A stretch of 64,000 bases of DNA, from assembly GCA_033964015.1 (NCBI GenBank), contig JAWWUD010000222.1:1-64000 (forward strand). Direction: 5' to 3'. The DNA comes from Scolanthus callimorphus (lineage: Eukaryota > Cnidaria > Anthozoa > Actiniaria > Edwardsiidae). A program made the position numbers and the translations under genes. Shown here in pieces: positions 15,901-63,947 of the stretch; position 1 is the stretch's first letter; every line of letters begins with the position of its first letter. The notes under the pieces are model-generated. The model was not told the DNA's origin. It saw nothing but the letters and a program-made list of their open reading frames with translations, and made no database searches.

Positions 15901-17353
15901 TAGATAGCCTTACAGACCTAGAGCTCTACGACAAGAACCTTGTGAAGGCAGTCAACACCAGAGTTATACCAGTGGCTGCTTATGCCATGAATGTGTGCCA
16001 ATTCAGTTTGAAAGAATTATACGAGCTAGACATGCTAGTCAAGAACAAGCTACGTGAGAAGAGGATGCTGGGGAGACAAGCGAGCGACGAGAGGTTGTAC
16101 ATGAAGCGGGAAGACGGTGGACGTGGCCTCAAGAGCTTGCGTGCAGTTTACCAGCAGACCAAAGTGCGGGTGGCAACGTACATGGCATGTAGCACGAGCC
16201 AATGGATACAAGTGGCCTGGAGAAGAGAGCTCCAAAACGAGTACAAGAGCCTAAGAAGAGAGGCAGAGGAGGCGATGCAAGAGCTGGGAGAAGAGGTCGA
16301 GTTTCGAGCGAATGAGGTGAAAAGGAATGGAGAGAGGATTGAAAAGGATTGGGCGGGATGTTGGAAGGAGTTGAAGGAGGCAATAAGGGTGCGGTATAAG
16401 GAACAGCTGACTACCAAGTATGTACAAAAGAGCATGCAGAGCCAGGCGTTTGCTGCCCAAGAGAGTGAAGACGCCGCCTGGCTAACGACGAACATATCTC
16501 CGCAGAAGACCTCCAGTATTATGGACATGATGGAGCAGATGGTGGAAACGCGGAAGTGGAAGGCGATGAGAGGGATAGGAGATGAGGGACTGTGTAGGCT
16601 ATGTAACGCACAGGACGAGACCGTCGAACATCTTCTCTCGGGATGCGAGACCATCACCGCGACAGAGTATCTTCGTCGCCATAATAATGCGCTCATGGTG
16701 CTGGCCACCAACTGGGCCATGGAGAAGGACCTGCTGGCAGCAAAAGACGCGTGGCAAGGCGCATGGAGAAAAGGTCATGTACTCAAAGGTGACAAATATA
16801 AGCTGTGTTGGGACTTCGAGTACAGGTTAAGAAAGAAAAACACGGCTAGGCGACCAGACTTGACCCTGGAGGACGTTGATGAAAAGAGAATCTTCCTGGT
16901 AGATATGGCATGCCCCATGGAGCGCAACATAGAGGAAACCAGAAAGACGAAACTTAAAAAGTACCAACAATTAGCATACGAGATCAGAGAACGAAGACCA
17001 GGTTTAGAGTGGAGGTGATTCCTGTCGTCATCGGTTGTCTGGGCGGTGGAGTTCCGGGGGCGCGGCGTGCGGTCCAGAGACTGTTCTCGAGCAGTGAAGA
17101 GGCCACCAGGATAGTGGCCTCTATGCAGAGAACAGTCCTAATGGAAGGGGAAACCACTTTAAGAAAGATCCTCGGAGGAGTCGTGCAACTGGAATAGGCA
17201 GCCGTCTATATTTAATTTCGATTTTTATTTTTATTTATCTATTTATTATCTACTCATATACTGTACACAAGAAAGAGGGACGGTGACCTCCCCAGCAATG
17301 CTTGGTGGGGAGATGGAATGGCCGCATTGAAGAGCGGCTTTTTCTCTTCATAA
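12915..17353 (+). mobile_element. Full-length non-LTR retrotransposon, RLE type (R4/Dong/R2-like), in TAA microsatellite
   Basis: The element runs from GGGGCAAGGATCCC after a TAA tract to a 3' UTR ending in TCTTCATAATAATA. It has a 5' UTR of about 490 bases, one long ORF and a 3' UTR of about 155 bases. An endonuclease of the restriction-like type (RLE) at the C-terminus and insertion in TAA repeats are both known for Dong of silkworm (R4 clade), so a member of that clade or a relative is the likeliest assignment. Clade assignment would need a phylogeny of the reverse transcriptase. Confidence 0.88.
13404..17197 (+). pseudogene. LINE polyprotein: Myb-like repeats, reverse transcriptase, CCHC, RLE endonuclease (one frame change near the end)
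   Basis: I start at ATG 13404; the frame is open further up to 13341 without an ATG. Order of parts: two copies of a Myb-like module beginning W-T-x-E-x-K and ending N-A-R-F-K-x-E (residues about 30-90 and 125-190), a basic coiled region, then reverse transcriptase with SAPGMDGI, AFYDYRKAYDKV, GFLQGDSYSP and the catalytic FIDDLKVY. Near the end come CRLC-x7-H-x4-C, a CCHC knuckle as in R2-type elements, and RRPDLTLE...FLVDMACP, the PD...D signature of the restriction-like endonuclease. The main frame stops at 17018 (GLEWR). The next frame continues VEVIPVVIGCLGG to 17197, as relatives do, so one base appears lost in a TTT near 17003. Replication is by target-primed reverse transcription. Confidence 0.9.
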
Positions 17354-35971: not shown

Positions 35972-36966
35972 TTACAGCGCGAGAAGCCCAAGTATGGCCA
36001 CCCGGTAATTAATTCGCATACTTTCGCGTTAGCCAATCACAGGCGGGGGTTATTACAAGTGAGCCGGGCTCAAACCGCAAAACTGCTCGAGTCACGATGA
36101 GTGTTCAAGTCATGAAATACAGCCAAACTTCCTTGGTTTTCTATTTGCTGTATTTGCTCTGAACGGAAAAACGTTATCCAAGCTGAAATCAAATATAAAA
36201 TATCCGTTTTCTTGCGGGTCAAGTACTAGAAAGACAAAGTAAACAGGTGTAGTCGGAATTCAAAGCGCGCGAGAAAAGCCGTCGACTGAGTTTGTCTCTC
36301 CGCTAGTCGGAGGTCAAATTATTCGCCCGCATTTTCCATTTATGCTTGTCACTAAACCTGCATCGATAAAAAATTATATAATTTAGAAATGAATTGAGAA
36401 ACTTCCTTTTCGAAAACATATTGACCATTTCCCGAAAGAGAATAGTTTCTTGTTCGCGAATAATTTGACATCTGATAAACAACTCAGTAGTAGGCGGGTT
36501 CTTGCAAGTTTAGATCGCAATGTGAGTTTATTTATCATCCCAGGATCTGAAAAGTAAATTGCTATTTGAACATTATAATTTGTATGATTCTAAGCTCATT
36601 TCTAAATTATATAAATTATTACATGTATCGATGCCTGCAGGTTTAAGTGCCGAGTATAAATGGGAAATGCGGGCGAATGATTTGACCTCCGACTAGCGGA
36701 GAGACAAACTCAGTCGACGGCTTTTCGTGCTTGACCCGCCAGAAAACGGACATCAGCTTAGATAACTTTTAGCCGCTCAGAGCAAATAGAAAACCTAGGA
36801 AGTTCCGCTGTATTTCATGACTTGAACACTCATCGTGACTCGAGCAGTTTTGTGGTTTAAGCCCGGCTCACTTGTAAAAAAAAACCGCCTGTGATTGGCT
36901 AACGCGGGCGAAAGTATGCGAATTAATTATCGGGTGGCCATACTTGGGCTTCTCGCGCTGTAAATA
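35972..36966. mobile_element. Foldback element, about 1 kb, with inverted arms near 400 bp
   Basis: TTACAGCGCGAGAAGCCCAAG at the left and CTTGGGCTTCTCGCGCTGTAA at the right. The arms run through TAATTAATTCGCATACTTTCGC and CAGTCGACGG/CCGTCGACTG to GGGCGAAT/ATTCGCCC and meet near 36480. Small differences between the arms show age. No transposase-sized ORF. Confidence 0.85.
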
Positions 36967-38348: not shown

Positions 38349-39066
38349 ACATTATCGACTTCGCAAAAGTGTACAAAAAATACAACTCGTTACCAAAATT
38401 ATACTATATTACATAGATATTCGCTTATTTTACAGTCTGGAATAGCTTAGGTTGTCAAACCGATAACAAATTGGATTAAAAATATGGACTCCCCAAAAAC
38501 GTGACAAGTATTCCGTGACAAAACTTGGTCAGACATGTAGCTATCCTCACCACGTGCCTCGCTTGATTGGCTAAGTACAACTGGCTTTCATCCAACCAGG
38601 AAAGCCCGGAACAACTTTGAAGCGATTCATTTTTGATGAAAAAAAATCCTTCTCCTCGGCGCTCTAGGTTGGGCTTGGAGATGATAGACACATGTAGTGT
38701 TTAGAGAACCATGTGCGGGATTTTTGATTTTCTTTTCCAAATTGATTTTATAGTAATTTTCCAGTAGAAAAAGAAATGCAAAAATACGAAGACTAACTTT
38801 AACAGAACGTGATGGTTTAGAAACATTTTTGCAAGCCAAAAATCCCGTACAACATTTATTTGTTATTATAATTAAGTTTAGAGCGGTCGTGTCTTTTTAT
38901 TCCCAAACTCTTGAAACTCTTATAGCAAACACACTGCTCCTTGTTTGCGGCCTCAAATCTTGAGTTTGGCAATACATTTCACTAAATAGTTTCTACGTCC
39001 AAAAACTTCATTCTTTTAGCTTTAAAATGACGCCATGTCGCATAATAAATTTGTTTAATCCCCACA

Positions 39067-39510
39067 GTGTCAATATCATGGCATCACCTATCAGTTTGTC
39101 CAGCATGGAACCAAGCAAGAATGACGATCATCCCGATAGTGTCAATATAACGGCATCACCTATCAGTTTGCCCAGCATGGAACCAAGCAAGAATGACGAT
39201 CATCCCGATAGTGTCAATATAACGGCATCACCTATCAGTTTGACCAGCATGGAACCAAGCAAGAATGACGATCATCCCGATAGTGTCAATATAACGGCAA
39301 CACCTATCAGTTTGACCAGCATGGAACCAGGCAAGAATGACGATAATCCCGATAGTGTCAATATAACGGCATCACCTATCAGTTTGCCCAGCATGGAACC
39401 AAGGGGGAATGACGATCATCCCGATAGTGTCAATATAACGGCATCACCTATCAGTTTGACCAGCATGGTACCAAGCAAGAATGACGATCATCCTGATAGT
39501 GTTGATGTGC
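39067..39510 (+). repeat. Six tandem 72-bp units coding for a 24-residue motif
   Basis: Units of the type SVNITASPISLPSMEPSKND repeat head to tail with very few base differences. The motif is hydrophilic, rich in S, P, D and N and probably unstructured. It forms the N-terminus before the ankyrin array. No known family recognised. Confidence 0.9.
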
Positions 39511-39540
39511 TTCATGAACACAATGACCCTGGTGTGGTTG

Positions 39541-41226
39541 ACATGAGCAATGTATTAATGAGCGCATGTAGAGATGGCAATGTTGATATTGTACGTGGGC
39601 TTGTCGATAGTGGTGCTAATGTTAATGTTGCTGATAAAGACGGTAAAACCCCTATAATGTATGCATGTGCTGGTGGTCATGTTGATATTGTACGTGGGCT
39701 TGTCGATAGTGGTGCTAATGTTAATGTTGCTGATAAAGACGGTAAAACCCCTATAATGTATGCATGTGCTGGTGGTCATGTTGATATTGTACGTGTGCTT
39801 GTCGATAGTGGTGCTGATGTTAATGTTGCTGATAAAGACGGTGAAGCCCTTATAATGTATGCATGTGCTGTTGGTCATGTTGATATTGTACGTGCGCTTG
39901 TCGATAGTGGTGCTAATGTTAATGTTGCTGATAAAGACGGTGAAACCCCTATAATGTATGCATGTGCTGGTGGTCATGTTGATATTGTGCGTGCGCTTGT
40001 CGATAGTGGTGCTAATGTAATGTTGCTGATAAAGACGGTAAAACCCCTATAATGTATGCATGTGTGTGTGGTCATGTTGATATTGTACGTGTGCTTGTCG
40101 ATAGTGGTGCTGATGTTAATGTTGCTGATAAAGACGGTGAAACCCATATAATGTATGCATGTGCTGGTGGTCATGTTGATATTGTGCGTGTGCTTGTCGA
40201 TAGTGGTGCTGATGTTAATGTTGCTGATGAAGAAGGTGAAACCCCTATAATGTATGCATGTTATCGTGGTCATGTTGATATTGTACGTGTGCTTGTCGAT
40301 AGTGGTGCTGATGTTAATGTTGCTGATAAAGACGGTGAAACCCCTATAATGTATGCATGTGCTGGTGGTCATGTTGATATTGTGCGTGTGCTTGTCGATA
40401 GTGGTGCTAATGTTAATGTTGCTGATAAAGACGGTGAAACCCCTATAATGTATGCATGTTATCATGGTCATGTTGATATTGTGCGTGCGCTTGTCGATAG
40501 TGGTGCTAATGTTAATGTTGCTGATAAAGACGGTGAAACCCTTATAATGTATGCATGTGCTGGTGGTCATGTTGATATTGTACGTGTGCTTGTCGATAGT
40601 GGTGCTAATGTTAATGTTGCTGATAAAGACTTTGAAACCCTTATAATGTATGCATGTGCTGGTGGTCATGTTGATATTGTGCGTGCGCTTGTCGATAGTG
40701 GTGCTAATGTTAATGTTGCTGATAAAGACGGTGAAACCCTTATAATGTATGCATGTGCTGGTGGTCATGTTGATATTGTACGTGTGCTTGTCGATAGTGG
40801 TGCTGATGTTAATGTTACTGATAAAGACGGTGAAACCCCTATAATGTATGCATGTGATCATGGTCATGTTGATATTGTACGTGTGCTTGTCGATAGTGGT
40901 GCTGATGTTAATGTTGCTAATAAAGACGGTGAAACCCCTATAATGTATGCATGTGATCATGGTCATGTTGATATTGTACGTGCGCTTGTCGATAGTGGTG
41001 CTAATGTTAATGTTGCTGTTAAAGACGGTGAAACCCTTATAATGTATGCATGTGCTGGTGGTCATGTTGATATTGTACGTGTGCTTGTCGATAGTGGTGC
41101 TGATGTTAATGTTGCTGATGGAAACGGTAAAACCCCTATAATGTATGCATGTTATCGTGGTCATGTTGATATTGTACCTGTGCTTGTCGATAGTGGTGCT
41201 GATGTTAATGTTACTGATAAAGACGG
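39541..41226 (+). repeat. Array of 17 nearly identical 99-bp ankyrin units
   Basis: Each unit codes for a 33-residue ankyrin repeat with the core TPIMYACAGGHVDIVR followed by LVDSGADVNVADKDG. The consensus positions (TPLH/GH/LL/GAdvn) are met. Units differ by a handful of bases, at a few residues mainly (V/A/G after IVR, A/D/N, and the two positions before GH: AG, YR, YH, DH). That level of DNA identity indicates recent expansion or homogenisation. Unit 5 lacks one T near 40018, which breaks the frame. The multiple-of-three period also keeps a 452-codon antisense frame open, which is an artefact. Confidence 0.95.
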
Positions 41227-42746
41227 CAAAACCCCTATAATGTATATATGTGATATGGCTGATACTCGTCATTTTAATTTGTTGGATAACAATAGAAAAC
41301 CTATTGCAGAACTTCGGAAATGCTTTGTGCAATATCTTGTTGAAAACGGAGCAAACGTGAACAAAGTCGACAGCAAGGGACGGACAGCGTTATTTAGAAC
41401 ATTGGACCCAGAGGTTGCTTCTTTTCTGATAGATAAGGGTGTATCTATTAACAAGCGTGACAACAACGGAAGAACTGCACTGTACAATGCATTTGTCAAT
41501 ACTGATCATGAGTTGGCCAAGCGTCTTCTTCAAAATGGTGCGTTAAGGGACGTTGCGGACGATTGTAACTTATCGGTTTTGCAATTTGGCATACACAGAA
41601 TTCTTGAAAGTGTAGTTGCCGACCACAAGGACTTTGAGAAAATTGTAGAACAGCGTCTGCTGTTCATTGGTGGTACCGATTTCAAGCTGAAAAACCTTCT
41701 GATCAATGCAGTACTTAACATTTTTCTAAAAGCGATGACACTGTACTTGCGTCCTCAGGTAAACACAAAACAAATTATGCTGAATGCTAAACACGGACTC
41801 GAATGGTGCTTGCCGAATTCTCAGAGTACTTCGCGTATTGTGAATGAAGTCCAAAGGTTGATAGATGGAAGGTCTGCCTCGATTTTCCGTATTTGCGAGT
41901 TACTACTCGACCTGGGTGCAGATCCAAACACCCCAGACCCTAATGGTAACACTCCTCTGTTCTATGCCGCTCTTTTTTTACCGTTTGGACGCGATATTAC
42001 ATCCAAAGAAGTCGCCAAAGTGTGTGTGCTTCTTATCGATCGCGGAGCAAGAGTGAACGCCCAAAATTACGAAAAAGAAACCTCTTTGCTCCATCTGATG
42101 CAATGGTTGATGAAAGATGTCTTGCTAGAACAATACGCTCAAAAACCACCTGTCCAATCTATTACAAACGTATTTTCACTACTTCTAGAAGCCGGAACAA
42201 ATATTGATATCACAAATGAAGTGGGTGAAAGTGTTTACCACTTCATCTCTTTTTTTTGTCAAAAACTTACCGAATCGTCAAGTTATGCACCTGTTATCAT
42301 GCTGGTCCAAGGCATTTTGAAAGTATTGGGTACTTGCGGGAAGAAACGCTTGCGTCGCGCCGTAAACATGCCTGACAGACGTTTGAATAGCCCTCTTCAT
42401 TCCTGGGCTTCCTTGAACTGGCTGAGGGGATCAGATGGAAATGTTGAGGAGATAAGAGCGTTGCAAAGCACAGTATTTACACACCTGTTCGAATCCGGCG
42501 CAGTGCTTACCAAGAAAATGCAGATCGCCAAACTCCCTTCATTTGTGCCAGACATGGAGTGCAGTGCAGCTCTTACTGGATGCTGGAGCCAACCCAAGCG
42601 TTGTAAATTATACAGGTGATACGCCATTGCTTGCTCAGCTAAAACGCATGCGAAACAGTATCGTTGATTCACAAGAGCTCAAATACCTATACCCTGACAT
42701 AGCCAAACTCGATATGGAGCCCTGCAAGTTTGGAAAGAGGTTCTAA
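41227..42746 (+). CDS. RNase L-like protein: diverged ankyrin region
   Basis: After the array the frame continues to 42619 with individual ankyrin repeats that have drifted (GRTALFRTLDPEVASFLIDKG, NGRTALYNAF, ELLLDLGADPNTPDPNGNTP, LLIDRGARVNAQ, LLLEAGTNIDI). Around 42540-42570 the frame changes and a further repeat (LLLDAGANPSVVNYTGDTPL) is read up to 42746. These units are not homogenised, so selection or age has kept them apart from the array. In RNase L the corresponding repeats form the ligand surface; whether that holds here cannot be judged from sequence alone. Confidence 0.75.
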
Positions 42747-42802
42747 GACTTCATCTCGACTGCTGGTCAATCAACAATAACGATGAGTCTGTCCTAAGCA
42801 TA

Positions 42803-44527
42803 TTGTTATCCACTCAGAGTTTCGCTTTGGTAGATAGTTTACTAAGAGTTACATGCAAGTCAGCACCTGGGCGGTTTCAGGATATCATTGGAAGTTCGGT
42901 ATTACTCCAGATTTGCAAAGATCCAAGTGTGAAGATGCACTGGAAGACGAACCTTGTAGAGTTTTTGTTAACAGAGGGTGTTGATGTGAATGCAAAGAAT
43001 AAGGAAGGCAGAACCTCACTACATCTGAGTTGCCAAAATCTGATTGACTCAGGCAATGTAGACAGTGTCCATTCAGAAATCATAAAGCGTCTCCGATTTT
43101 ATAATGCCGATAGCAATATTGAAGATTCTACTGGAATGACGTGCTTGATTTTGGCGCCCGAGTCACCGCATTTAACGGATCTCTTGGAAAGCCCCGTAAA
43201 TACCAGAGATATACCAACGTGTATTCCATGGGCAGAGAAATCAGAACGATACAAATCGATACTTGCCGAGGTGGCAAGAAGGAAGAACTCGAACAAAATT
43301 GAGGATTCTGAATTCTATTATTACACAAATGCCATTGGTCATGGTGCTTTCGGGACTGTGTTTGCGGGTATAAATGGTACAGACGGAAGAGAAATCGCAA
43401 TAAAACGTGTTTCAAAGCATGACACAAGGATTCGAGCGGAAGAGCGAACGGAAATTTCAAATTTCATAAATCTAGAGAACTGTCCGCAGGTTGTAGATTA
43501 CCTACTTTTCAGAGAAGACTGTATGTCTGTTTTCATTGTTCTTGAGCTAATGGAGGGAAACTTGGATGATTATTTGGATGTTGTAACACGAGACCTCATG
43601 ACGTATGCTAAACTGTGTAGGGATTTGGTTCAAGGTATTGAATTCTTGCATGGGAAAGGAATTCTGCATCGTGACCTTAAGCCTGGCAATATTTTCTACA
43701 AATTAGACCCTTTGTGCTTGAAGATAGGTGACTTTGGTTTGAGCAGTAAACCAAATCCAAGGCCCTTCGCGCTCTCTACGGTGATGCACACAAACGCGGG
43801 GACGCCTTGCTGGATGGCTCCTGAAATCAGCGATTCAAGAAAGAAGCACTCAAAGTCTTCCGACATGTTTGCTTGCGGTCTTATACTACATTACTTTATG
43901 ACTGATAGGCGTCATCCGTTTGCGCCATCAAATGACGAGCCACGTGTAAATGAAAACAGGACACTAGAAATCCAACAGAACATCAGAAGCTGTAGCCCAT
44001 CAATATCTCCACATCTTTCACCCGATGCCTTCCATCTGGTCGAGAGAATGATCACTGGCAACAAAGACGAACGTATTACCGCCTCTGAAGCTTTGTCTCA
44101 TCCCTTCTTTTGGTCTTATGATAAAAAGATAAAGTTTCTAATATCCTTAGCTAACCAGCCTGAGATAGAAACTCCCCGGAGGTTGGTATCATCGCTAACG
44201 AAAGTGGAGCAAGATCTCGAATGTAGCTTTCGCAAACACGTTGCTGGTCCATGGAACACCATCATCCCACAAATCTACAACGAGATGTCAAAGAAAGGAT
44301 ATCGTATATATGAAGTTACTTCAGGTGTCGACCTCGTGCGCTTTATACGTAATGCATACGCACATGTTTCTGATAGAACGCGCCCCACTGGTTTCCAGAC
44401 TGCCCTGTTACGTGACTTCCGGCCTCTCAAGCGGTTCCCCTGGTTGGTGATGGAAGCGTATAAATCTGTGATAAATGGAGGATGGGAAACACGAGAGGAA
44501 ATCAAGGCTGCGTTACTTTCACAGTGA
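42803..44527 (+). CDS. RNase L-like protein: kinase and KEN domain part, intact frame of 574 codons
   Basis: The frame is open upstream of 42803 to about 42712. It begins with one more ankyrin (VDVNAKNKEGRTSLHLSC, residues 60-77). The kinase runs about 172-436: glycine loop GHGAFGTVFAG (179-189), lysine in IAIKR (201), HRDLKPGNIF (289-298), DFG (310-312), APE (339-341). All catalytic residues are present, unlike vertebrate RNase L, which has a pseudokinase. HPFFW at 433-437 leads into KEN (about 438-558), with DLVRFIRNAYAH (510-521). The R and H of RNxxxH (R516, H521) correspond to the residues needed for RNA cleavage in IRE1 and RNase L (R667 and H672 in human RNase L). It ends at TGA 44525-44527; no AATAAA follows closely. 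Confidence 0.9.
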   Translation: MLSTQSFALVDSLLRVTCKSAPGRFQDIIGSSVLLQICKDPSVKMHWKTNLVEFLLTEGVDVNAKNKEGRTSLHLSCQNLIDSGNVDSVHSEIIKRLRFYNADSNIEDSTGMTCLILAPESPHLTDLLESPVNTRDIPTCIPWAEKSERYKSILAEVARRKNSNKIEDSEFYYYTNAIGHGAFGTVFAGINGTDGREIAIKRVSKHDTRIRAEERTEISNFINLENCPQVVDYLLFREDCMSVFIVLELMEGNLDDYLDVVTRDLMTYAKLCRDLVQGIEFLHGKGILHRDLKPGNIFYKLDPLCLKIGDFGLSSKPNPRPFALSTVMHTNAGTPCWMAPEISDSRKKHSKSSDMFACGLILHYFMTDRRHPFAPSNDEPRVNENRTLEIQQNIRSCSPSISPHLSPDAFHLVERMITGNKDERITASEALSHPFFWSYDKKIKFLISLANQPEIETPRRLVSSLTKVEQDLECSFRKHVAGPWNTIIPQIYNEMSKKGYRIYEVTSGVDLVRFIRNAYAHVSDRTRPTGFQTALLRDFRPLKRFPWLVMEAYKSVINGGWETREEIKAALLSQ

Positions 44528-44594: not shown

Positions 44595-44886
44595 CGCCCC
44601 GTGTAAGGTAATCCAGAATCCGGAATCCGACTTTTTTAGCTTTGGAATCCGGAATCCGTAGAATGGAATCCGGAATCCATATAGCAGGAATCCAGAATCC
44701 AAACGCCTTGAGAATCCGGAATCCAAGAATTTATTCAGATAAAGAAATATTGGAATCCGGATTCTTTGAGAGTTATGGAATCCGGAATCCACTTGTATGG
44801 AATCCGGAATCCAGTAGGTTGGAATCCGGAATCCAAGGGCTGGAATCCGGAATACAAGATCTGCTTGGATTACCTTACATGGGGCG
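44595..44886. mobile_element. Foldback element of GGAATCC repeats with 8-bp flank duplication
   Basis: CGCCCCGTGTAAGGTAATCCA at the left and TGGATTACCTTACATGGGGCG at the right. CTACTCTT precedes it and ATACTCTT follows (7 of 8). The interior is about twelve copies of TGGAATCCGGAATCC. It lies 68 bases after the stop of the RNase L-like gene. Confidence 0.8.
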
Positions 44887-57118: not shown

Positions 57119-57182
57119 GTCTTTTTTTTATTTATAGAAGCGCGTTTTCAGATTTTATTGCCGCTGCCGCTGGAAAACAGAC

Positions 57183-57191
57183 TATATTAAA
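57183..57191 (+). promoter_or_regulatory. TATA-like box (TATATTAAA)
   Basis: 40 bases before the ATG at 57231, just after GCCGCTGCCGCTGG at 57162. Confidence 0.5.
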
Positions 57192-57230
57192 GCGAGCACC
57201 CCTTCGCGATCACCATTTTGGCGAGCAATC

Positions 57231-57644
57231 ATGGAAGACTCTGTGTATTGGGTTCGTTGTTATGATCAACATGGAAAAGAAATGCCTTCTAAAGAGATGG
57301 CGGCCATGATGAATAAAGAGGCGCAAAGAGGGTTTGTTCCTGCTTACATCAACGAGCTTGACCGTCAGCGAGTAGTTCAAGTGTTACCTGGGTTGAAGCA
57401 TTGTAGTAATGTGTTAGACGAGGTGCGCACCATTTTGTTCTCCATGATCGGAGCGATGGAAGGGAACAAGGACGACGACGATTATGCTTCGAGTGGTGGT
57501 CCTTCGAATTATTGTTTGAAATATCAAGAGTTTATGGAGAAGCTGGAGGAGTTACAAACGATCCGCGAAGGTTACGAGTTTGACGACTGGTACAAGATGT
57601 TTGTCAAGATGAAATTGATTTCGGACAAAAAACTGAACTTTTGA
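57231..57644 (+). CDS. Virus-like block ORF, 137 residues, unknown
   Basis: Intact frame, starting MEDSVYWVRCYDQHGKEM. It is mainly helical in pattern, with acidic DDDDYA near residue 85 and an aromatic-rich end (DDWYKMFVKMKL). It has its own TATA-like box upstream and an AATAAA at 57796 downstream, so it may be a single transcription unit. No family recognised. The start is the first ATG after the promoter and keeps a coherent N-terminus. Confidence 0.6.
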   Translation: MEDSVYWVRCYDQHGKEMPSKEMAAMMNKEAQRGFVPAYINELDRQRVVQVLPGLKHCSNVLDEVRTILFSMIGAMEGNKDDDDYASSGGPSNYCLKYQEFMEKLEELQTIREGYEFDDWYKMFVKMKLISDKKLNF

Positions 57645-57795
57645 TTGTCTTTCTGTACGAACTACTCGTTTGGCCTTCTCGTCTCTTTGTTTGGAACTCG
57701 AGCGCCTTACCCGGCTCGCTAGCAAATCAACTAACAGCGCAACGTTTAATCTACAAACTTGATTGGTGCAAATAATATAGTCACGTGAACGAATC

Positions 57796-57801
57796 AATAA
57801 A
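57796..57801 (+). terminator. Polyadenylation signal
   Basis: AATAAA 152 bases after the stop at 57644, followed at once by CAGCAGCGGCAG (the boundary motif inverted) and the next TATA box. Confidence 0.5.
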
Positions 57802-57832
57802 CCAGCAGCGGCAGTTTGTGTGTGTGTTTTTC

Positions 57833-57839
57833 TATAAAG
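57833..57839 (+). promoter_or_regulatory. TATA box (TATAAAG)
   Basis: 43 bases before ATG 57876, after a (GT)n stretch; it would drive the run of five overlapping or abutting ORFs that follows. Confidence 0.6.
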
Positions 57840-57875
57840 TGGGAGGGAGGGATTGTAGGGTGTAAGTTGAGCAAG

Positions 57876-58256
57876 ATGATCGAAGACGTAGCTTGTGCCG
57901 CGTCTTATTTGGACGAGTTAGTCGCGTTGTATTTGGGGTATTGGAAGAACCGAGAGTCGATGCAGATTCAGCGTTCGGTGAGGAACGAGATTGTTCGTCA
58001 TGCGAACAATCTTGCAATCGCCTTGAATGAGAGCATGGTCTCGAGGTGCGCAGCGCCATTAGCAAAGAAGCAGGAGTTTTACCGAGACTGTATGGAGTCC
58101 ATTTTCGAATTGCTAGCCGACAACGAGTTACAGTGCGCTGCTACTCGCGATGACGGGATCCTATTTGCCGCTGTGATCTCGTCGTTGAGAGAGTACTTTG
58201 CCATTGCATACAGAAAGTTCAGTTTCTATCATAGCCATTATGGAGGAAAGGTTTAA
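57876..58256 (+). CDS. Virus-like block ORF, 126 residues, unknown
   Basis: ATG 57876 (MIEDVACAASYLDELV) follows the TATA box; the frame is open further up without an ATG of its own that would suit the promoter. The protein is predicted mostly helical (IVRHANNLAIALNESM, SSLREYFAIAYRKF) with a few cysteines and no membrane segment. It overlaps the next gene by 17 bases in another frame, a viral style of packing. No family recognised. Confidence 0.6.
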   Translation: MIEDVACAASYLDELVALYLGYWKNRESMQIQRSVRNEIVRHANNLAIALNESMVSRCAAPLAKKQEFYRDCMESIFELLADNELQCAATRDDGILFAAVISSLREYFAIAYRKFSFYHSHYGGKV

Positions 58257-58497
58257 TAAGGTGCTGAGACGTTATGTTGCTTTTCAACGTTCTTCTGATT
58301 TGTTCTGGTTGACGCGTCGTCTGGAAACCGTTTCGCCTTATTTTAAACATGTATTGTATTTTTACGAGGGGCGGGCATTTTTCACCCGACTCCCGAGTAC
58401 AGATCTATCCGGTGACGTTGCTATGGGTGCATTGGAGTTTGGAGCTGCAGCGGCACTGGTATGGGATAAAAAGGAGAAGTCGCAGAAAGGACGGTGA
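58240..58497 (+). CDS. Virus-like block ORF, 85 residues, unknown
   Basis: ATG 58240 (MEERFNKVLRRYVAFQ) lies inside the end of the previous ORF. The N-terminal half is basic and aromatic (LFWLTRRLETVSPYFKHVLYFYEG); a short small-residue helix (MGALEFGAAAALVW) may be weakly hydrophobic. It stops four bases before the next ATG. No family recognised. Confidence 0.55.
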   Translation: MEERFNKVLRRYVAFQRSSDLFWLTRRLETVSPYFKHVLYFYEGRAFFTRLPSTDLSGDVAMGALEFGAAAALVWDKKEKSQKGR

Positions 58498-58501
58498 GAC
58501 C

Positions 58502-58948
58502 ATGCCTCGTTCGCTACGAACACGTTTGCGACAGCAAAAATCCCGCCACAAACGCCAAATGCAACGCGCTTTGGCGGCGCATCGCAAGCAACAAGGTCGA
58601 CTTTACGAAGATTTTCTGTTGTTAAAGTATTGGGCACCCCAGCATTATTTTGGATGTTCTGTTTTTCGAGCCATTTTAGATTCGAATCTTGCGGTCTTGG
58701 CAAATCAACTATGTTTGAACACGGTGAACGCCATTCGTTCAAAGTTGACGAACCTCCCTTCGTATTTTCGTGCGGCATGCCAGCGAGTCGACGAGGCGAA
58801 GTTGTCGTCCAAGACGAGAGAGGAGATCAAGCGGTTCAATATGGTGATCGTTCCTTATGACGTGTTTTCTGTGTCGCAACAGCGCCAACTCGCATCGGCG
58901 ACAGGAAAAGACGATTTGTCTGTGGTGGCGTGCTATTTACATCACTGA
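58502..58948 (+). CDS. Virus-like block ORF, 148 residues, basic N-terminus
   Basis: ATG 58502 follows the previous stop by four bases. The frame is open back to 58349, but that part overlaps the previous gene and reads poorly. The first 33 residues are strongly basic (MPRSLRTRLRQQKSRHKRQ), suggesting binding to nucleic acid or a nuclear signal. The rest is helical with VPYDVFSVSQQRQL near the end. Function unknown. Confidence 0.6.
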   Translation: MPRSLRTRLRQQKSRHKRQMQRALAAHRKQQGRLYEDFLLLKYWAPQHYFGCSVFRAILDSNLAVLANQLCLNTVNAIRSKLTNLPSYFRAACQRVDEAKLSSKTREEIKRFNMVIVPYDVFSVSQQRQLASATGKDDLSVVACYLHH

Positions 58949-58971
58949 AAAAACGCGATTCCGTCTCAGAC

Positions 58972-59280
58972 ATGGATTGTCCTCGTTGCGAGATGCAGCT
59001 GAGAGCCAACGCTGAGTTGTTCTTAAGACTGTTTCACGGCTTGTCTGTTTTGAGACAATTTTCCATTTCTCTCCAAGATCGTGCCGGGCATCGTCTGGTG
59101 TCCGAATTGCTGATGTTGACGTTACCCCACCCTTACGTCCGTCATGACGGGTTGACACGTTATTTCCGACAACCGTATTTGGAAGAGAATGAAAACGAGG
59201 CAAGTCCTGAAGTTGTCGCTGCCGCTACCATTTTACTCGAAATGAAAGGCAGTGCACGTTCTTTGAACAGAGTGGGCTAA
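58972..59280 (+). CDS. Virus-like block ORF, 102 residues, unknown
   Basis: ATG 58972 starts MDCPRCEMQLRANAELFLRL, with a CxxC at the very N-terminus, then a helical stretch and an acidic ENENEASPE linker. It ends nine bases before the next ATG. No family recognised. Confidence 0.55.
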   Translation: MDCPRCEMQLRANAELFLRLFHGLSVLRQFSISLQDRAGHRLVSELLMLTLPHPYVRHDGLTRYFRQPYLEENENEASPEVVAAATILLEMKGSARSLNRVG

Positions 59281-59289
59281 ACGAGCATC

Positions 59290-60246
59290 ATGGCAGGATC
59301 TCTTTATGATATGAGTTATTTGATGGTGAACGAAGGTCGTCGTTGCTGTCGTTGCGTGGAGTGTTTGTTTCCTGTCTTCCCACGTCCTTGCAACTGTTTT
59401 CATGGGTTCATGGTGGTTTATGGCGAAGAGCAAGGAAACGGGACCTCAACCTCTGGGATGATGACCGTCATGATGATGTTCAACCTTTCTGCTAAGAACG
59501 ACTGGTTTCAGATGAATTGGCAGGAGTTTCACGATGCGTTTAAGAACAAAGTTGTAGAGTGGGTTCGAGAAGCGACGTTCCGCTATTCCAAGAACTTGCA
59601 CGCTGCCTGTGTCTACGGTCTAGACGGTGTTGAAACCCAGCCGGATGTCTATTGCTTCGACATTCATAATGCGTTTTTCAAGGGTTCGTTCTATTACGAA
59701 GGACCACTGTTTATGCCAAAGAAACTGTATAGTTTGAGCGCGTCTTTTTTGTCACGCGTCGACTCTTTTTTCTGTTTGAAGACCGGTATTGGCATTATTA
59801 CGCCAGCTTGGCGAAGACTCTGTGTTCGCGTCGAATCGTAGATGCTAGATACGATTCACTGAATGCAACGCTCTGGACGAACAAATCCACCTGTTATTGT
59901 ACACATTTTGTGATTCGAAAAAAAGGGCCATGCTCGTTACGTCACCTGGCGTATTTGACGTGTCGCCAGCATTTTATGAAACACCGTCGTGTCGGCACCT
60001 TTGGGTTGATTCACGAGTATTTTATGACCTTTCTACATGAAACCGTAGGAAGAATTCAAAAAGGATGAGCGTGATGAGCGCGCCTTTGACTTGTTGTATT
60101 CTTCGGACGTGTCTTTGTTTTCGTTGCACGAGATTCGGGAAGACGGCTTAAATCTTTTTAATTACGATTCTAGATCGATAGGATGGAATGATGCGAAACC
60201 CTGTGTAATGCGTCAACGACAAAAGATTGTTCTTGTTAATCAATAA
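59290..60246 (+). pseudogene. Virus-like block gene of about 318 codons with two compensating frame changes
   Basis: The first frame (59290-59841) starts MAGSLYDMSYLMVNEGRR with a cysteine cluster CCRCVEC...PCNC (residues 19-36). After about 59750 the better reading is one frame over (FEDRYWHYYASLAKTL ... FGLIHEYFMTFLHETVG) to 60062. Then the first frame resumes (DERDERAFDLLYSSDVSLFS) to TAA 60244-60246, which overlaps an AATAAA. Each switch lies next to a homopolymer (T6 near 59745-59771, A5 near 60058). The cysteines may bind zinc. No family recognised. Two opposite indels that restore the frame suggest either assembly errors or decay. Confidence 0.55.
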
Positions 60247-60247
60247 A
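60242..60247 (+). terminator. Polyadenylation signal overlapping a stop codon
   Basis: CAATAAAG: the TAA stop of the preceding gene is part of AATAAA. A CATAAAG at 60285 stands 46 bases before the next ATG and may serve as its TATA element. Confidence 0.55.
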
Positions 60248-60331
60248 GACGTTGTATCTGTATATGTGTGCATGTGTTTTTTTTCATAAAGAGAACGAAC
60301 ACGACTTAGCAACTCTATTCAACGTTAGACA

Positions 60332-61227
60332 ATGGGTTTGATCCGTTTGGTGTTGAAGAGTGTGCTTGTGGTGAGTGGCGTCGTGGTGGCTGCTTTTGGA
60401 GTAGGATTTGCCGCTGGGGTGTCGTTAATGCTGTTAGATAGAAACAGGACGACACGGCCAGACCGGGGCAGACCCACGATGGCGAGCGAAGCGTGCGCAA
60501 CCCACTGTGATCAGTTGTTGGCGTTGGTGTCCGGGTATTCTTCCAAGATGGCGACTTTGGTAAACGAGGACTTGGATCCTGAAACGGAAGTGAAATTGAT
60601 CGATCAAGATGGATTTACGATTCAATTGGAAGAGGTGATCAAGGAGTGTCTGACGGAGAGTGTGAAGCACTGGATCCTATTTTATCGACATCATCAGCAA
60701 GTGCTGTCCATGTTGACCTCGTTGTGCCAGTTTCCCCAACACATGAAGGTAGGGGATGCTACGTTGTTCGTGTTACTGCTGGCCCAAACGAAGGACGTGT
60801 TGACGGTGATGCGAAAATTGTCCATATGGCAAGAAGACTCGTTTTTGCTCCGGGAACTGAAAGGAGATCAGATGCGGGTGTTTCTGGCTATGGACCGAAC
60901 GTTGGATTATGTGAGTCACTTACTCCGATGTTATATTCACGAGTCGGGTCTGCCTAAAACCTCGTTGGCAAGTATCAAACAGGACTTTGAGTTTGCCGCC
61001 TTTTATCCATGTTTGGTTATTGTGCCCTGTTGCAAGTGGTTCAGCTCGGTCTGGAAGAATGGTACGGGGAAAATACGTCGCCACACGAAGAGTACGGCAA
61101 GTTCGTTTTTCCCAAAACCAATTGCTACTGGTTAAAAAACTGGGTGGACGGTCTATTTGGCGCGATGAATGACGTGATTGACAAAACGAAACGTTTGACC
61201 AATCCCGTGGAAGGCGACAGACTATAA
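60332..61227 (+). pseudogene. Virus-like block gene of about 298 codons, N-terminal membrane segment, one frame change
   Basis: MGLIRLVLKSVLVVSGVVVA opens a hydrophobic stretch (residues about 5-36, rich in V, A, G), which is a signal anchor or membrane span, followed by RNRTTRPDRGR. A long helical part follows (CATHCDQLLALVSG, LLRCYIHESGL). After FEFAAFYP near 61000 the sense passes to the next frame (GYCALLQVVQLGLEEWYGE ... KTNCYWLKNWVDGLFG), ending at TAA 61225-61227. The switch lies at a TTTT. The stop overlaps the next gene's TATA box. A membrane-associated structural protein is possible; no family recognised. Confidence 0.55.
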
Positions 61228-61229
61228 AG
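61223..61229 (+). promoter_or_regulatory. TATA box (TATAAAG)
   Basis: 41 bases before ATG 61270; it shares bases with the preceding stop codon. Confidence 0.55.
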
Positions 61230-61269
61230 TGCGCTTGTTGTACGATCCCGCTCATTTCGTTCCTTCATC

Positions 61270-61647
61270 ATGGCCAGTACCAAAACGTCTGCACAACGCC
61301 AATGGCGTCACCTTCGTGCTTGTTGTCAGCTCTTGACTTCGTCTATTGGTGAAGTGTGTGAGCCCATCACCAACCCCATCCAACAAAGAACCTTGGCAGG
61401 ACAGATTTTCACCATGATGGATGCTTTAGAACAGCTCTCTACGACAGGTCAGCTCTGGAAAAGCAAGACTGCAGAGATGTCGTTTCACCAAAAGGAGGTG
61501 GTAAAGGTGTTGCGTCGATGGGAAGAAATGAAATGGGAACATCTGGTGGAACACAGTGAGGAGGAGGACACGTCGTCGTCCGAGGAGGAAGAGGAGGAGG
61601 AGGAGGAGGAAGAAAAAAAAGATGTGCATATTCACATTCATTCGTAA
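61270..61647 (+). CDS. Virus-like block ORF, 125 residues, acidic tail
   Basis: MASTKTSAQRQWRHLRACCQ starts a helical body that ends in an unusual acidic run (eleven glutamates after DTSSSE, residues about 96-115) and the closing KKDVHIHIHS with alternating H and I. Its own TATA box is 41 bases upstream. Acidic tails of this sort occur on histone-binding or nuclear proteins, but nothing else supports that role. Confidence 0.6.
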   Translation: MASTKTSAQRQWRHLRACCQLLTSSIGEVCEPITNPIQQRTLAGQIFTMMDALEQLSTTGQLWKSKTAEMSFHQKEVVKVLRRWEEMKWEHLVEHSEEEDTSSSEEEEEEEEEEEKKDVHIHIHS

Positions 61648-61649
61648 CG

Positions 61650-61670
61650 TTTGCCGCTGCCGCCGTTTTT
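61650..61670 (+). promoter_or_regulatory. GCCGCTG boundary motif
   Basis: TTTGCCGCTGCCGCCGTTTTTAAG between two genes. The word GCCGCTG, or its inverse, also stands at 56668, 56773, 56826, 56840, 57162, 57168 and 57805, each time between genes of the block. Confidence 0.5.
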
Positions 61671-61711
61671 AAGAAGAAAAAAAAACCCTTAAAAAACCCT
61701 GAACCCTCTAG

Positions 61712-62680
61712 ATGAACCAGTTCAAAATGAGTACCTTGGTTGGATTTTGTCCTTCGTACTGCTGCTGTCAAGGGTTTGTCCTTTCCAGAGATGAGGCTGA
61801 TGCGGTCTGCAAGCAATTAATGCATCTGATCGTCGCCCTGTGCCAACGACGCATTGGACTGGCTGAAGATTTTGCGAAACTCCAGTCCGCTTGGTCAGGA
61901 CCGTTGTTAACCGGGGAAGACGCTGGGCGTAAGAAGACGCGCTTTTTGTCGGCGGTCAACTCCCTTCACCACATGGTACAGGTTCGAGAACAGGCTCAAC
62001 CCTGTTCGACTTGTTTTTTCAACCAATCAAGCGGACCAGATCAGCTTTGTGCTCGTTGTCATTTGGACAATGTTCTCATTCCTCACCCCAAGAGGGGAAG
62101 AAAGCGACAGACGGACGAGGAAGAAGAAGAGCAGATCCCGTATCAAGGGTTTGGCGATCCATCCCCAGCCAAGGAAGAGGATGGGAAGATCGAGTCCATG
62201 TTTGGGAAGATAAACAAGCGAAGAGGGTATCGTTGCCGAGAAGGATGTATCAACAGCGACCATAAGGGCCCCAATGTCCTTTTTTCAGCGTGTATTGTCC
62301 CCAAGAAGAAGAAGAAGTTATGCGACGAAAGGTGTGTCACCCCAGGTCATCCAGGCTTATTTTCGTCCTGTCAAATTCCCGACAAGCTGGAAGAGAAGAA
62401 AAGCACCGATGAAAAGGGAACCTCAAGTGGCGATGTTAGTACGACCACCTCAAGTGGTGGTGGTTTTGGTATTGAGGCGCCGGCGATCTTCGGCCCCAGT
62501 TTTGGTGCAAAAACCTCAAGTGGCGATGTTAGTACGACCACCTCAAGTGGTGGTGGTTTTGGTGCAAACACCTCAAGCAGTTTTCTTGCGAAATCCTCAA
62601 GTGGTGGTTTTGGTAGTGGGGTGCCCGCGACCTTCGGCAACAGTTTTGGTAGTGGGATGCCCGGCAGCGGACTGTTCTGA
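61712..62680 (+). CDS. Virus-like block protein with zinc-knuckle-like modules and an FG-repeat tail, 322 residues
   Basis: Intact frame from ATG 61712 (a second ATG at 61727 is possible). Residues about 1-95 are helical with CCCQ and a CSTC...CARC pair. A nuclear-signal-like KRGRKRQTDEEEEE lies near 127. Two modules with the same spacing follow, CREGCINSDH...C and CDERCVTPGH...C, which look like CCHC zinc knuckles, separated by PKKKKK. From about 225 the tail is S/T/G-rich with six FG dipeptides in GGGFG or SFG settings and a directly repeated TSSGDVSTTTSSGGGFG. FG tails are typical of nucleoporins; here a viral or element-encoded mimic that contacts the nuclear pore or its import receptors is a guess. 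Confidence 0.65.
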   Translation: MNQFKMSTLVGFCPSYCCCQGFVLSRDEADAVCKQLMHLIVALCQRRIGLAEDFAKLQSAWSGPLLTGEDAGRKKTRFLSAVNSLHHMVQVREQAQPCSTCFFNQSSGPDQLCARCHLDNVLIPHPKRGRKRQTDEEEEEQIPYQGFGDPSPAKEEDGKIESMFGKINKRRGYRCREGCINSDHKGPNVLFSACIVPKKKKKLCDERCVTPGHPGLFSSCQIPDKLEEKKSTDEKGTSSGDVSTTTSSGGGFGIEAPAIFGPSFGAKTSSGDVSTTTSSGGGFGANTSSSFLAKSSSGGFGSGVPATFGNSFGSGMPGSGLF

Positions 62681-62732
62681 AACAAAAGACAAAAGTAGAT
62701 TAGTAGTGCATGTATCAGGTAAAAAAAAAGGG

Positions 62733-62738
62733 AATAAA
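62733..62738 (+). terminator. Polyadenylation signal
   Basis: AATAAA 53 bases after the stop at 62680 and 60 before the next ATG; it may serve as a TATA-like element as well. Confidence 0.45.
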
Positions 62739-62797
62739 ACGGTGTGTTTGTTTCACGTGGACTCATTGTTTTCTTGGAGTCGAAACGGGTAGCGAAA

Positions 62798-63168
62798 ATG
62801 GACGACGGCAGTCGATCGGATGATGTGTTTTTTGATCGGCTTTATGAGGTGGCGACCAAAAGGCTCAGACCCTAATCTCCACCTTTGTTTTTGATGCGGG
62901 TCCAAAGCTGTGTTCGCGTGGGTTTTTGGAGCACGTGCACTGGCACCTGATGGGTAAGATGATGCAACCGGTTGCTCCCCTGATGTTTGTCGATCAGCGG
63001 TTAAGCGTCGTCGACGCGTTACTTGCTGTGAGGGAGCATTACACAAGTTTTGTGCCGCTGTCCGAATTGACTCTTCATCGCCTCTTCGAATGTTATATGA
63101 GGTTTGTCGATTGCCCCTTCACTCCATTTAGTTTTCGTCTCTTCGACACCACGGATTACGACGTGTAA
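62798..63168 (+). pseudogene. Virus-like block gene of about 123 codons with one frame change
   Basis: ATG 62798 gives MDDGSRSDDVFFDRLYEVATK and would stop at 62874. The neighbouring frame carries on from about 62857 as TLISTFVFDAGPKLC ... LTLHRLFECYMRFVDC to TAA 63166-63168. The switch lies at an AAAA in ACCAAAAGG. It ends three bases before the next ATG. No family recognised. Confidence 0.5.
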
Positions 63169-63171
63169 CTC

Positions 63172-63630
63172 ATGGAACCGTGTGGATGCCTGTCGAGTCA
63201 TTCGACGTCTCTCGTCAACCGCGTGGGAGAGGTGTTGCGGCAAACCCCGGAACTTGATTTTCCCACGTTGATGGATGGGTTTTGGCAAGAGCTCGTGAAA
63301 CGTCCGGATCGGCTAAAGGAGATTCATTCCGTTATTTGCAATTGGCATCACGTGGGGTACGACGAGCGACTGTTTGAACTGCATGGATGTTATGATCCCG
63401 AGTGTGATTCGTTTACAGCGTATTTGGCCCGTTGTTTAATGGCCATGCACGCAGCGCATGTGTCGACTCAACTGTTTGTCGAGTTGGAGGATATTCATCA
63501 CAACCCCATTCCTCCTACGGTGTGGACCTTGTTTGACAGTATTTATTGTGCGTATTGTCGATTTGGAACCATTAATCAGTTAGAGGTCGTGGCATTGAGG
63601 TTGGTTTGTCAAAAAAGGGTGACATGCTGA
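63172..63630 (+). CDS. Virus-like block ORF, 152 residues, unknown
   Basis: Intact frame from MEPCGCLSSHSTSLVNRVGE. Cysteines and histidines recur in the middle (ICNWHHVGYDERLFELHGC, then DPEC) and could hold a metal. The last third is helical and aromatic (VWTLFDSIYCAYCRFG). It overlaps the next gene by seven bases (ATGCTGA: start and stop share bases). No family recognised. Confidence 0.6.
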   Translation: MEPCGCLSSHSTSLVNRVGEVLRQTPELDFPTLMDGFWQELVKRPDRLKEIHSVICNWHHVGYDERLFELHGCYDPECDSFTAYLARCLMAMHAAHVSTQLFVELEDIHHNPIPPTVWTLFDSIYCAYCRFGTINQLEVVALRLVCQKRVTC

Positions 63631-63947
63631 GTCTGGGAAAAACCGAGGAGCAATGGCGTCAGCATGCGCAATTGACGAACACGTTTCCACCCCAAGACGA
63701 TGCCAAAGAGACGTTTTTGAAAACGATGAAAGAATCGATCGAGTCCATTAATGAAATGATCGAGTACGTGCCCGATTCCAGGGACCGGGTGTCCCAATAC
63801 GATATCGCCAAAAGTGTGGTGTACGATTGGCTGACGCATGAATTGAAATCACGCCCCAAGGACGTGTTGCGTCATGCGATTCATGCTTATATAAAGCATC
63901 GATTTACGCTTTTAATGCGACAATCCCAACATGGGCTGGGTGTATAA
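63624..63947 (+). CDS. Virus-like block ORF, 107 residues, unknown
   Basis: ATG 63624 lies in the end of the previous gene; the frame is open to 63606, but no earlier ATG exists. Helical throughout (ETFLKTMKESIESINEMIEY, DVLRHAIHAYIKHRFTLLM). It overlaps the next start by 17 bases. Start/stop overlaps in a row imply one polycistronic or leaky-scanned transcript. Confidence 0.6.
   Translation: MLSLGKTEEQWRQHAQLTNTFPPQDDAKETFLKTMKESIESINEMIEYVPDSRDRVSQYDIAKSVVYDWLTHELKSRPKDVLRHAIHAYIKHRFTLLMRQSQHGLGV

Follow-up and report, generated by a model that had tools for sequence, protein, structure and literature searches.

The gene reported here has close counterparts among described systems. RNase L carries ankyrin repeats, a kinase and a KEN ribonuclease domain in that order, with a pocket for 2',5'-oligoadenylate (2-5A), and its kinase is a pseudokinase in which the usual motifs read HQD and DFD. 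IRE1 joins a kinase with catalytic residues to a KEN domain, and has a luminal sensor and a membrane segment in place of ankyrin repeats. Some fungal NLRs, as described in accessible passages of Dyrka 2014 (PMC4986451), carry highly conserved ANK, TPR or WD repeats; according to the same passages, such repeats amount to just 0.8% in animals. KEN domains with kinase and ankyrin repeats have been tabulated for eukaryotes in the accessible part of PMC3710099. In the titles, abstract beginnings and passages of the open-access literature that we searched, we found no description of an ankyrin-kinase-KEN family in cnidarians, nor was there one in passages of PMC3710099, PMC6307210, PMC13319465, PMC9334734, PMC8260672 and PMC8476169.

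Here we describe a gene with the RNase L domain order from the sea anemone Scolanthus callimorphus. It lies at 39,027-44,527 of the window (the whole stretch analysed, the first 64,000 of the 74,999 bases of the small contig JAWWUD010000222.1), spread over four open reading frames (ORFs), and belongs to a family of at least 18 copies. What is new here is that ten of the 18 copies carry uniform ankyrin arrays, in two subfamilies, in which variation is greatest at positions that for the most part are also the ones randomised in designed ankyrin binders. Near-identical units, a variable number of units and variable sites on one face recall the fungal NLRs. In contrast to those proteins, as far as their accessible description goes (PMC4986451), the effector here is a kinase-KEN module, the host is an animal, and a Pfam scan (E up to 0.01) found neither NACHT nor NB-ARC in the four window ORFs; moreover, unit number is compared here between paralogues only, and the selection tests are mixed.

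Domain architecture of the gene

Ank_2 matches occupy the two upstream ORFs (E 7.8e-77 and 1.4e-155 in Pfam). In the fourth, of 609 amino acids, the last ankyrin repeats (Ank_2, residues 84-156, E 1.5e-9) share one frame with a kinase domain (E 2.4e-49) and a Ribonuc_2-5A/KEN domain (residues 478-593; 33.7 bits against a cut-off of 23.3, E 4.7e-8). The continuous repeats and coding upstream suggest that the whole array and the kinase-KEN part would lie in the same mRNA. A whole-genome KEN search likewise recovered 44129-44476, and both sequence and fold comparisons with the PDB concur with the Pfam calls, the best match in each being IRE1; the fold match to RNase L extends over 501 residues. 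The structure model of this ORF reached a predicted local distance difference test score (pLDDT) of 87.2 and a predicted template modelling score (pTM) of 0.81. Upstream of the kinase only ankyrin-type Pfam matches are present, with no luminal domain. No membrane segment was evident in the three larger ORFs (the top 19-residue hydropathy, 1.69, falls inside an ankyrin unit; no dedicated membrane predictor was applied), and because of this the protein is likely cytosolic.

The motifs GHGAFG, IAIK, HRDLKP, DFG, APE, HPFFW and RNAYAH can all be read in the gene. RNAYAH satisfies the Rx4-6H motif of HEPN/KEN ribonucleases given in the accessible part of PMC3710099. Five of the 18 copies (L011, L014, L016, L020 and L027) have the kinase-KEN part split over frames and were omitted from residue counts and trees. 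Each of the 13 copies whose kinase-KEN frame is open has the kinase Lys, HRD, Asn and DFG, the KEN Tyr, Arg, Asn and His, and the R and H of the ribonuclease motif. Among 65 related rows, the KEN His is kept in 57 of the 58 that have a letter there and the HRD Arg in 62, whereas RNase L rows read HQD in 6/7 and DFD in 7/7.

The first-pass annotation, made from the bare sequence, had read the series ankyrin, kinase and KEN, with the KEN downstream of HPFFW, as the RNase L domain order outside vertebrates, and had noted that the kinase keeps its catalytic motifs, unlike that of RNase L. Pfam, the whole-genome KEN search, the PDB comparisons and the 13 open copies bear this out. Its extent, 39027..44527, holds for the domain order; the coding there, however, runs through four ORFs and not one frame.

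PF06479 is present in 56 of the 65 best protein matches, with an ankyrin family as well in 29 of the 56. All 12 KEN carriers with a named organism are Anthozoa (Dendronephthya, Xenia, Paramuricea, Desmophyllum, Actinia and Actinostola) among the matches listed, which are the best 120 of 2,310 from 7,990 scored candidates, and other phyla are possible. A protein search with KEN alone gave 4 proteins among 135 candidates, and absence in other phyla is not to be read from it. Some anthozoan ankyrin-kinase proteins are named '2-5A-dependent ribonuclease-like' (Dendronephthya; P0081, P0091 and P0108). They share the ankyrin repeats and kinase; unlike the window family, they have no KEN in their Pfam lists.

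Copies and ankyrin arrays

The genome assembly comprises 597 Mb in 302 contigs, and the profile search found KEN at 20 places. Eighteen of these, the window included, match the kinase-KEN part of the window gene, a count that is a lower bound, where the first-pass annotation had seen one copy. Ten lie on contig C2 (clusters at 24.9-25.1, 30.1 and 33.1-34.0 Mb), two each on C4, C5 and C15, one on C9 and one in the window. The copy closest to the window gene, L025, is 86% identical to it; L025 and L017, like the window gene, begin with 72-base arrays. The two other KEN places, both on C11, are IRE1 genes divided into seven or more exon pieces, which share 45-78% identity with human IRE1. These two genes (L009 and L010, at 20.37 and 23.98 Mb) are 3.6 Mb apart and match human IRE1 equally, exon by exon, and are either a recent duplication or an assembly duplicate.

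Tandem Repeats Finder detected uniform arrays of 8-48 units in the ten array-bearing copies. Six loci have 99-base units (16.9 in the window, then 23.9, 32.9, 33.5, 38.8 and 47.8 units, with 87-93% matches) and four, L014, L015, L011 and L016, have 102-base units (7.8, 18.8, 20.0 and 21.8 units, 88-92%). The same array type also occurs with no KEN match nearby at C2:32902921-32905294 and C8:12617230-12618714.

The units vary at the predicted ankyrin binding face. We take the positions randomised in designed ankyrin binders to be 2, 3, 5, 13, 14 and 33; this set was fixed during the analysis of the 99-base arrays, and the 102-base arrays were analysed later. That defined surface positions are randomised in designed ankyrins is stated in accessible passages of PMC8683736. 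When units were picked by pattern, variability in the 99-base units was highest at the five codons 13, 14, 5, 2 and 3, and in the 102-base units the top six positions coincided exactly with 2, 3, 5, 13, 14 and 33. These patterns (135 and 54 units) fix GH at 15-16 and favour the usual framework letters, and so overstate the constancy of the framework. The ranking was therefore repeated on units chosen by DNA identity alone (189 of 99 bases and 69 of 102 bases). For the 99-base units the order became 13, 14, 5, 3 and 2, followed by 29, 1 and 16 (a stricter threshold puts 29 ahead of 2), and for the 102-base units 13, 3, 2, 5 and 33, followed by 1 and 14, which moves position 14 from sixth to seventh.

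The variation is uneven within codons. In pattern-picked units of both subfamilies codon 14 specifies many amino acids with an invariant third base; codon 13 has a freely varying third base in the 99-base arrays. Codons 2, 3 and 14 of the 102-base arrays vary widely at bases 1-2 and hardly at all at base 3. In identity-picked units of these arrays, the diversity ratio between bases 1-2 and base 3 comes to 3.71 for the six positions and 0.66 for the others (4.16 and 0.67 before the repeated picking). This suggests diversifying selection in the 102-base arrays. In the window's 99-base array type such selection is unproven.

Proposed function

By analogy with IRE1 and RNase L, binding of a target by the ankyrin array would bring two molecules together, the kinases would pair, and the KEN domains would form a ribonuclease; autophosphorylation or nucleotide binding by the kinase may stabilise the dimer, as in IRE1. 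RNA cleavage by the KEN dimer would then stop translation or kill the infected cell. We consider it an even call that the product is a cytosolic receptor of this kind, in which the array binds a target, pairs the kinase-KEN parts and switches on RNA cleavage. In many copies the repeats are most variable where contact with a target is predicted, and for this reason the family is probably a varied set of alarm proteins that, once triggered, would cleave RNA. Exchange between units could keep the framework uniform while the binding positions diversify, and diversified arrays could direct the receptors to different targets, a proposal made for fungal NLRs in passages of PMC4986451. Unit numbers and face residues are spread so widely that several targets are more plausible than a single small molecule, a situation described for the repeats of fungal NLRs (PMC4986451).

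A fuller reading, tentative and on balance doubtful, is that Anthozoa possess a germline-diversified receptor repertoire without a NOD domain, in which arrays like designed ankyrins, with a uniform framework and a diverse binding face, each sit on a kinase-driven ribonuclease that would cut RNA upon meeting varied foreign protein. Vertebrate RNase L would then be a surviving single-ligand, kinase-dead branch of an ancient family. The arrays suggest that the repeat strategy of fungal NLRs may be used in an animal with a ribonuclease as effector, and of the fungal-type features uniform repeats (at ten of the 18 loci) and variable face sites are seen, with mixed tests for positive selection. We lowered our estimates of the receptor reading and of this fuller one because the repeated picking of units shrank the contrast between positions and demoted position 14.

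Several further results weigh against the receptor reading. The function is putative, drawn from domains and residues. Eight of the 18 copies have weak or short arrays only, or none. In the window array alone positions 14 and 13 lead, with 7, 22 and 29 next. The diversity ratio of the 99-base arrays hardly separates the six positions from the rest (1.98 against 1.67, down from 2.28 against 1.68 before the repeated picking). Counted as minimal changes over all codons of the pattern-picked units (leaving out window unit 39930, which crosses a frame change), replacements are not in excess, at 50:15 against 86:24 (p 0.85) and 36:9 against 25:16 (p 0.061; pooled p 0.47); codons seen at least twice do show an excess, with p 0.032 and 0.099 (pooled 0.0044). 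Other proteins, too, have ankyrin repeats that are variable on this face, and no KEN-bearing relative had four or more units in our scan, which drew on a search favouring proteins under about 1,070 amino acids. The ratio of nonsynonymous to synonymous substitution rates (dN/dS; five of seven planned pairs included) is 0.99 for KEN between the window and L025 and 0.44 between the window and L017, and for the kinase it is 0.64 between L025 and L017 and 2.52 between L019 and L026, with just two synonymous changes counted in the last pair. Finally, the window copy is itself split over frames, and L011 and L027, with five frame changes each, may be true pseudogenes.

The idea that the variable positions are unique to this family was rejected: 10 of 120 listed proteins have at least four units, and these ten vary at similar positions.

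Frame changes

These broken frames bring in the alternative that fares best, a degenerating or largely silent expansion of duplicated, intronless copies, many of them frame-shifted and with no present function. The window coding changes frame near 40.02 kb, within the repeat array, at a repeated word that lacks one base, and three more times between 42.53 and 42.73 kb (about 42.53-42.58 and near 42.72). Twelve of the 17 other loci have frame changes between overlapping ORFs, the copies lack introns whereas the IRE1 of the same genome is multi-exon, and the L019-L026 kinase ratio and the two copies with five changes point the same way. The 1,237-amino-acid reverse transcriptase ORF elsewhere in the window is unbroken, which tells mildly against a high error rate.

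Against decay stands the direction of the changes, which resembles that of long-read assembly errors. Consecutive coding ORFs at all loci gave 24 junctions of -1, 11 of +1 and one unchanged, 12 of the 36 crossing gaps with no recognised ORF; only two of the four window ORFs entered these totals, and the window's own changes are thus uncounted. Junctions of overlapping ORFs are -1 in 19 cases and +1 in five, off-register steps inside arrays are -1 in 7/8, and several changes fall in short base runs. One change in L014 scored as +1 resolves into two -1 steps. Moreover, in 13 of the 18 copies the kinase-KEN frame is unbroken and no catalytic residue has been lost, and the window kinase has a dN/dS of 0.31 and 0.42 against its two nearest copies. 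Because paralogues show like changes between overlapping ORFs, we infer that most frame changes are assembly deletions, error being likelier than decay. Weighed against the -1 bias and the window kinase ratios, a pseudogene reading of the window copy appears the less likely one; a silent expansion of the family we consider unlikely.

In L014, L016 and L020 a frame change falls at a common spot, about residue 339 of the kinase-KEN ORF, in a C/T run just after HRDLKP; it is either an error-prone run common to the three or an inherited change.

Relationship to RNase L and IRE1

Of 90 domain rows, 15 with missing or short parts were omitted from a quick 75-row tree, and 31 were chosen for a careful maximum-likelihood tree. 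In the latter the family forms one clade (100/99), as do the copies of this genome (99/98), and the family with RNase L stands opposite all IRE1 (99/98.8); the quick tree gives the same split with support 99. The approximately unbiased (AU) test rejects RNase L with animal IRE1 and the family with animal IRE1 (p 0.0066 and 0.0067). Five IRE1 rows, including the partial one of this genome, form one side of a 99/98 branch, and two-against-two consensus columns favour RNase L with the family in four cases and an alternative in one. Support for where the joint branch arose, from animal IRE1 or from older stock, is low (45/50). The RNase L branch measures 2.75 changes per site. With so long a branch, only five IRE1 rows (one partial) and RNase L rows drawn from a list in which the named organisms are mammals, the grouping is unsafe: the sequences lean towards a family joined to RNase L and apart from IRE1, yet long-branch attraction has to be reckoned with.

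The likeness to RNase L thus comprises the domain order, the R, N and H of the KEN domain, the fold match and the place in the tree. The likeness to IRE1 lies in the kinase with catalytic residues joined to KEN and in the top PDB matches, whereas the family differs from IRE1 in lacking a luminal sensor or evident membrane segment, in having ankyrin repeats and in forming a separate clade, with IRE1 itself present separately as the multi-exon genes on C11. The first-pass annotation had left open a deep homologue or an independent fusion, and the support values and AU test tilt towards a common branch with RNase L, which the long branch leaves unsettled. Its description of the gene as more IRE1-like fits the kinase motifs and the best PDB matches but not the tree, where the gene falls outside IRE1.

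The alternative that this is an anthozoan RNase L proper, whose ankyrin repeats would bind 2-5A from the animal's own OAS and whose KEN would be the effector of a pre-vertebrate OAS pathway, draws on the same domain order and tree. It also draws on OAS1_C, found at three places in the genome, of which the third is weak with an internal stop. An exon of L031 contains GGSIAKGTALKGSSDLD and IDVDLLP, which we take to be OAS catalytic motifs; an OAS gene, which the first-pass annotation had proposed to look for, is present. The pocket of RNase L presumably involves W60, K89, F126, E131 and Y135 of its ankyrin repeats. A strict pattern of this pocket occurs in 0/65 listed relatives against 41/120 RNase L proteins, and GW[TSA]P, the surroundings of W60, in 0/65 relatives and 0/18 loci of this genome against 108/120. 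GW[TSA] without the P is present in 5/65 relatives and in the ankyrin frames of L018 and L021, and a few such copies could differ in the 2-5A pocket. In its accessible part, a survey gives Acropora, Orbicella and Nematostella OAS and no RNase L (PMC6307210); contrary to this, passages of a poly(I:C) study of Nematostella count homologues of RNase L and OAS1 among the genes that respond (PMC8476169). RNase L has the 2-5A pocket, the pattern of which did not turn up in the window family. Many divergent copies (at least 18, ten of them with long uniform arrays) that differ in their arrays are ill-suited to one small-molecule ligand, and we consider an RNase L proper quite improbable. The 2-5A effector role raised by the first-pass annotation accordingly gains no support from the ankyrin residues, the OAS gene notwithstanding. 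A multi-copy anthozoan family of this kind, beside an OAS with a catalytic motif, is a candidate for the effector that was missing, and with it the origin of RNase L can be put to the test.

An IRE1-like stress regulator, whose ankyrin repeats merely anchor the kinase-KEN part to fixed host partners while the arrays drift neutrally under gene conversion, would suit the best PDB matches, the retained kinase motifs and the mixed selection tests, but is very unlikely, since the third bases of codons 2, 3 and 14 in the 102-base arrays hardly vary against bases 1-2, unlike neutral drift, and true IRE1 is present separately.

Features of the window

Table 1. Coordinates of the ankyrin-kinase-KEN gene in the window.
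Feature	Positions	Strand	Basis
ORF 1: N-terminal segment and first ankyrin units	39027..40052	+	open from 38964, ATG at 39027; Pfam
72-base (24-aa) repeat, 6.2 copies, in N-terminal segment	39058..39502	+	Tandem Repeats Finder
Ankyrin array, 16.9 units of 99 bases, 93% matches	39580..41252	+	Tandem Repeats Finder
ORF 2: remainder of uniform array, then diverged ankyrin repeats	40016..42619	+	Pfam
ORF 3: short coding bridge between frame changes	42456..42746	+	no Pfam match alone
ORF 4, 609 aa: last ankyrin repeats, kinase, KEN, stop	42698..44527	+	Pfam
Protein kinase domain	43325..44110	+	PF00069, residues 210-471
HRDLKP catalytic loop	43667..43684	+	sequence motif
KEN ribonuclease domain	44129..44476	+	PF06479
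RNAYAH: KEN active-site R, N, H	44348..44365	+	sequence motif

Just past the stop codon, 44610-44880 holds many short copies of a word like GGAATCCGGAATCC, with a flanking inverted pair. Upstream of the gene, the peptide KPSTEFVSPLVGGQIIRPHFPF appears on both strands, from 36243 (plus) and from 36768 (minus); this inverted repeat (36243-36768) perhaps belongs to a short mobile element. The open reverse transcriptase ORF at 13305-17018 also matches zf-RVT and belongs to a non-LTR-type element, and positions 2-409 contain an exon of a potassium channel-like protein (Ion_trans, Ion_trans_2). At the other end, 57138-63947 is a run of collinear plus-strand ORFs, eight of which (139-322 amino acids) were scanned and gave no Pfam match. 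G+C is higher (0.47-0.49), with positive GC skew, from 58 kb onward, and the run is possibly an integrated element of unknown kind.

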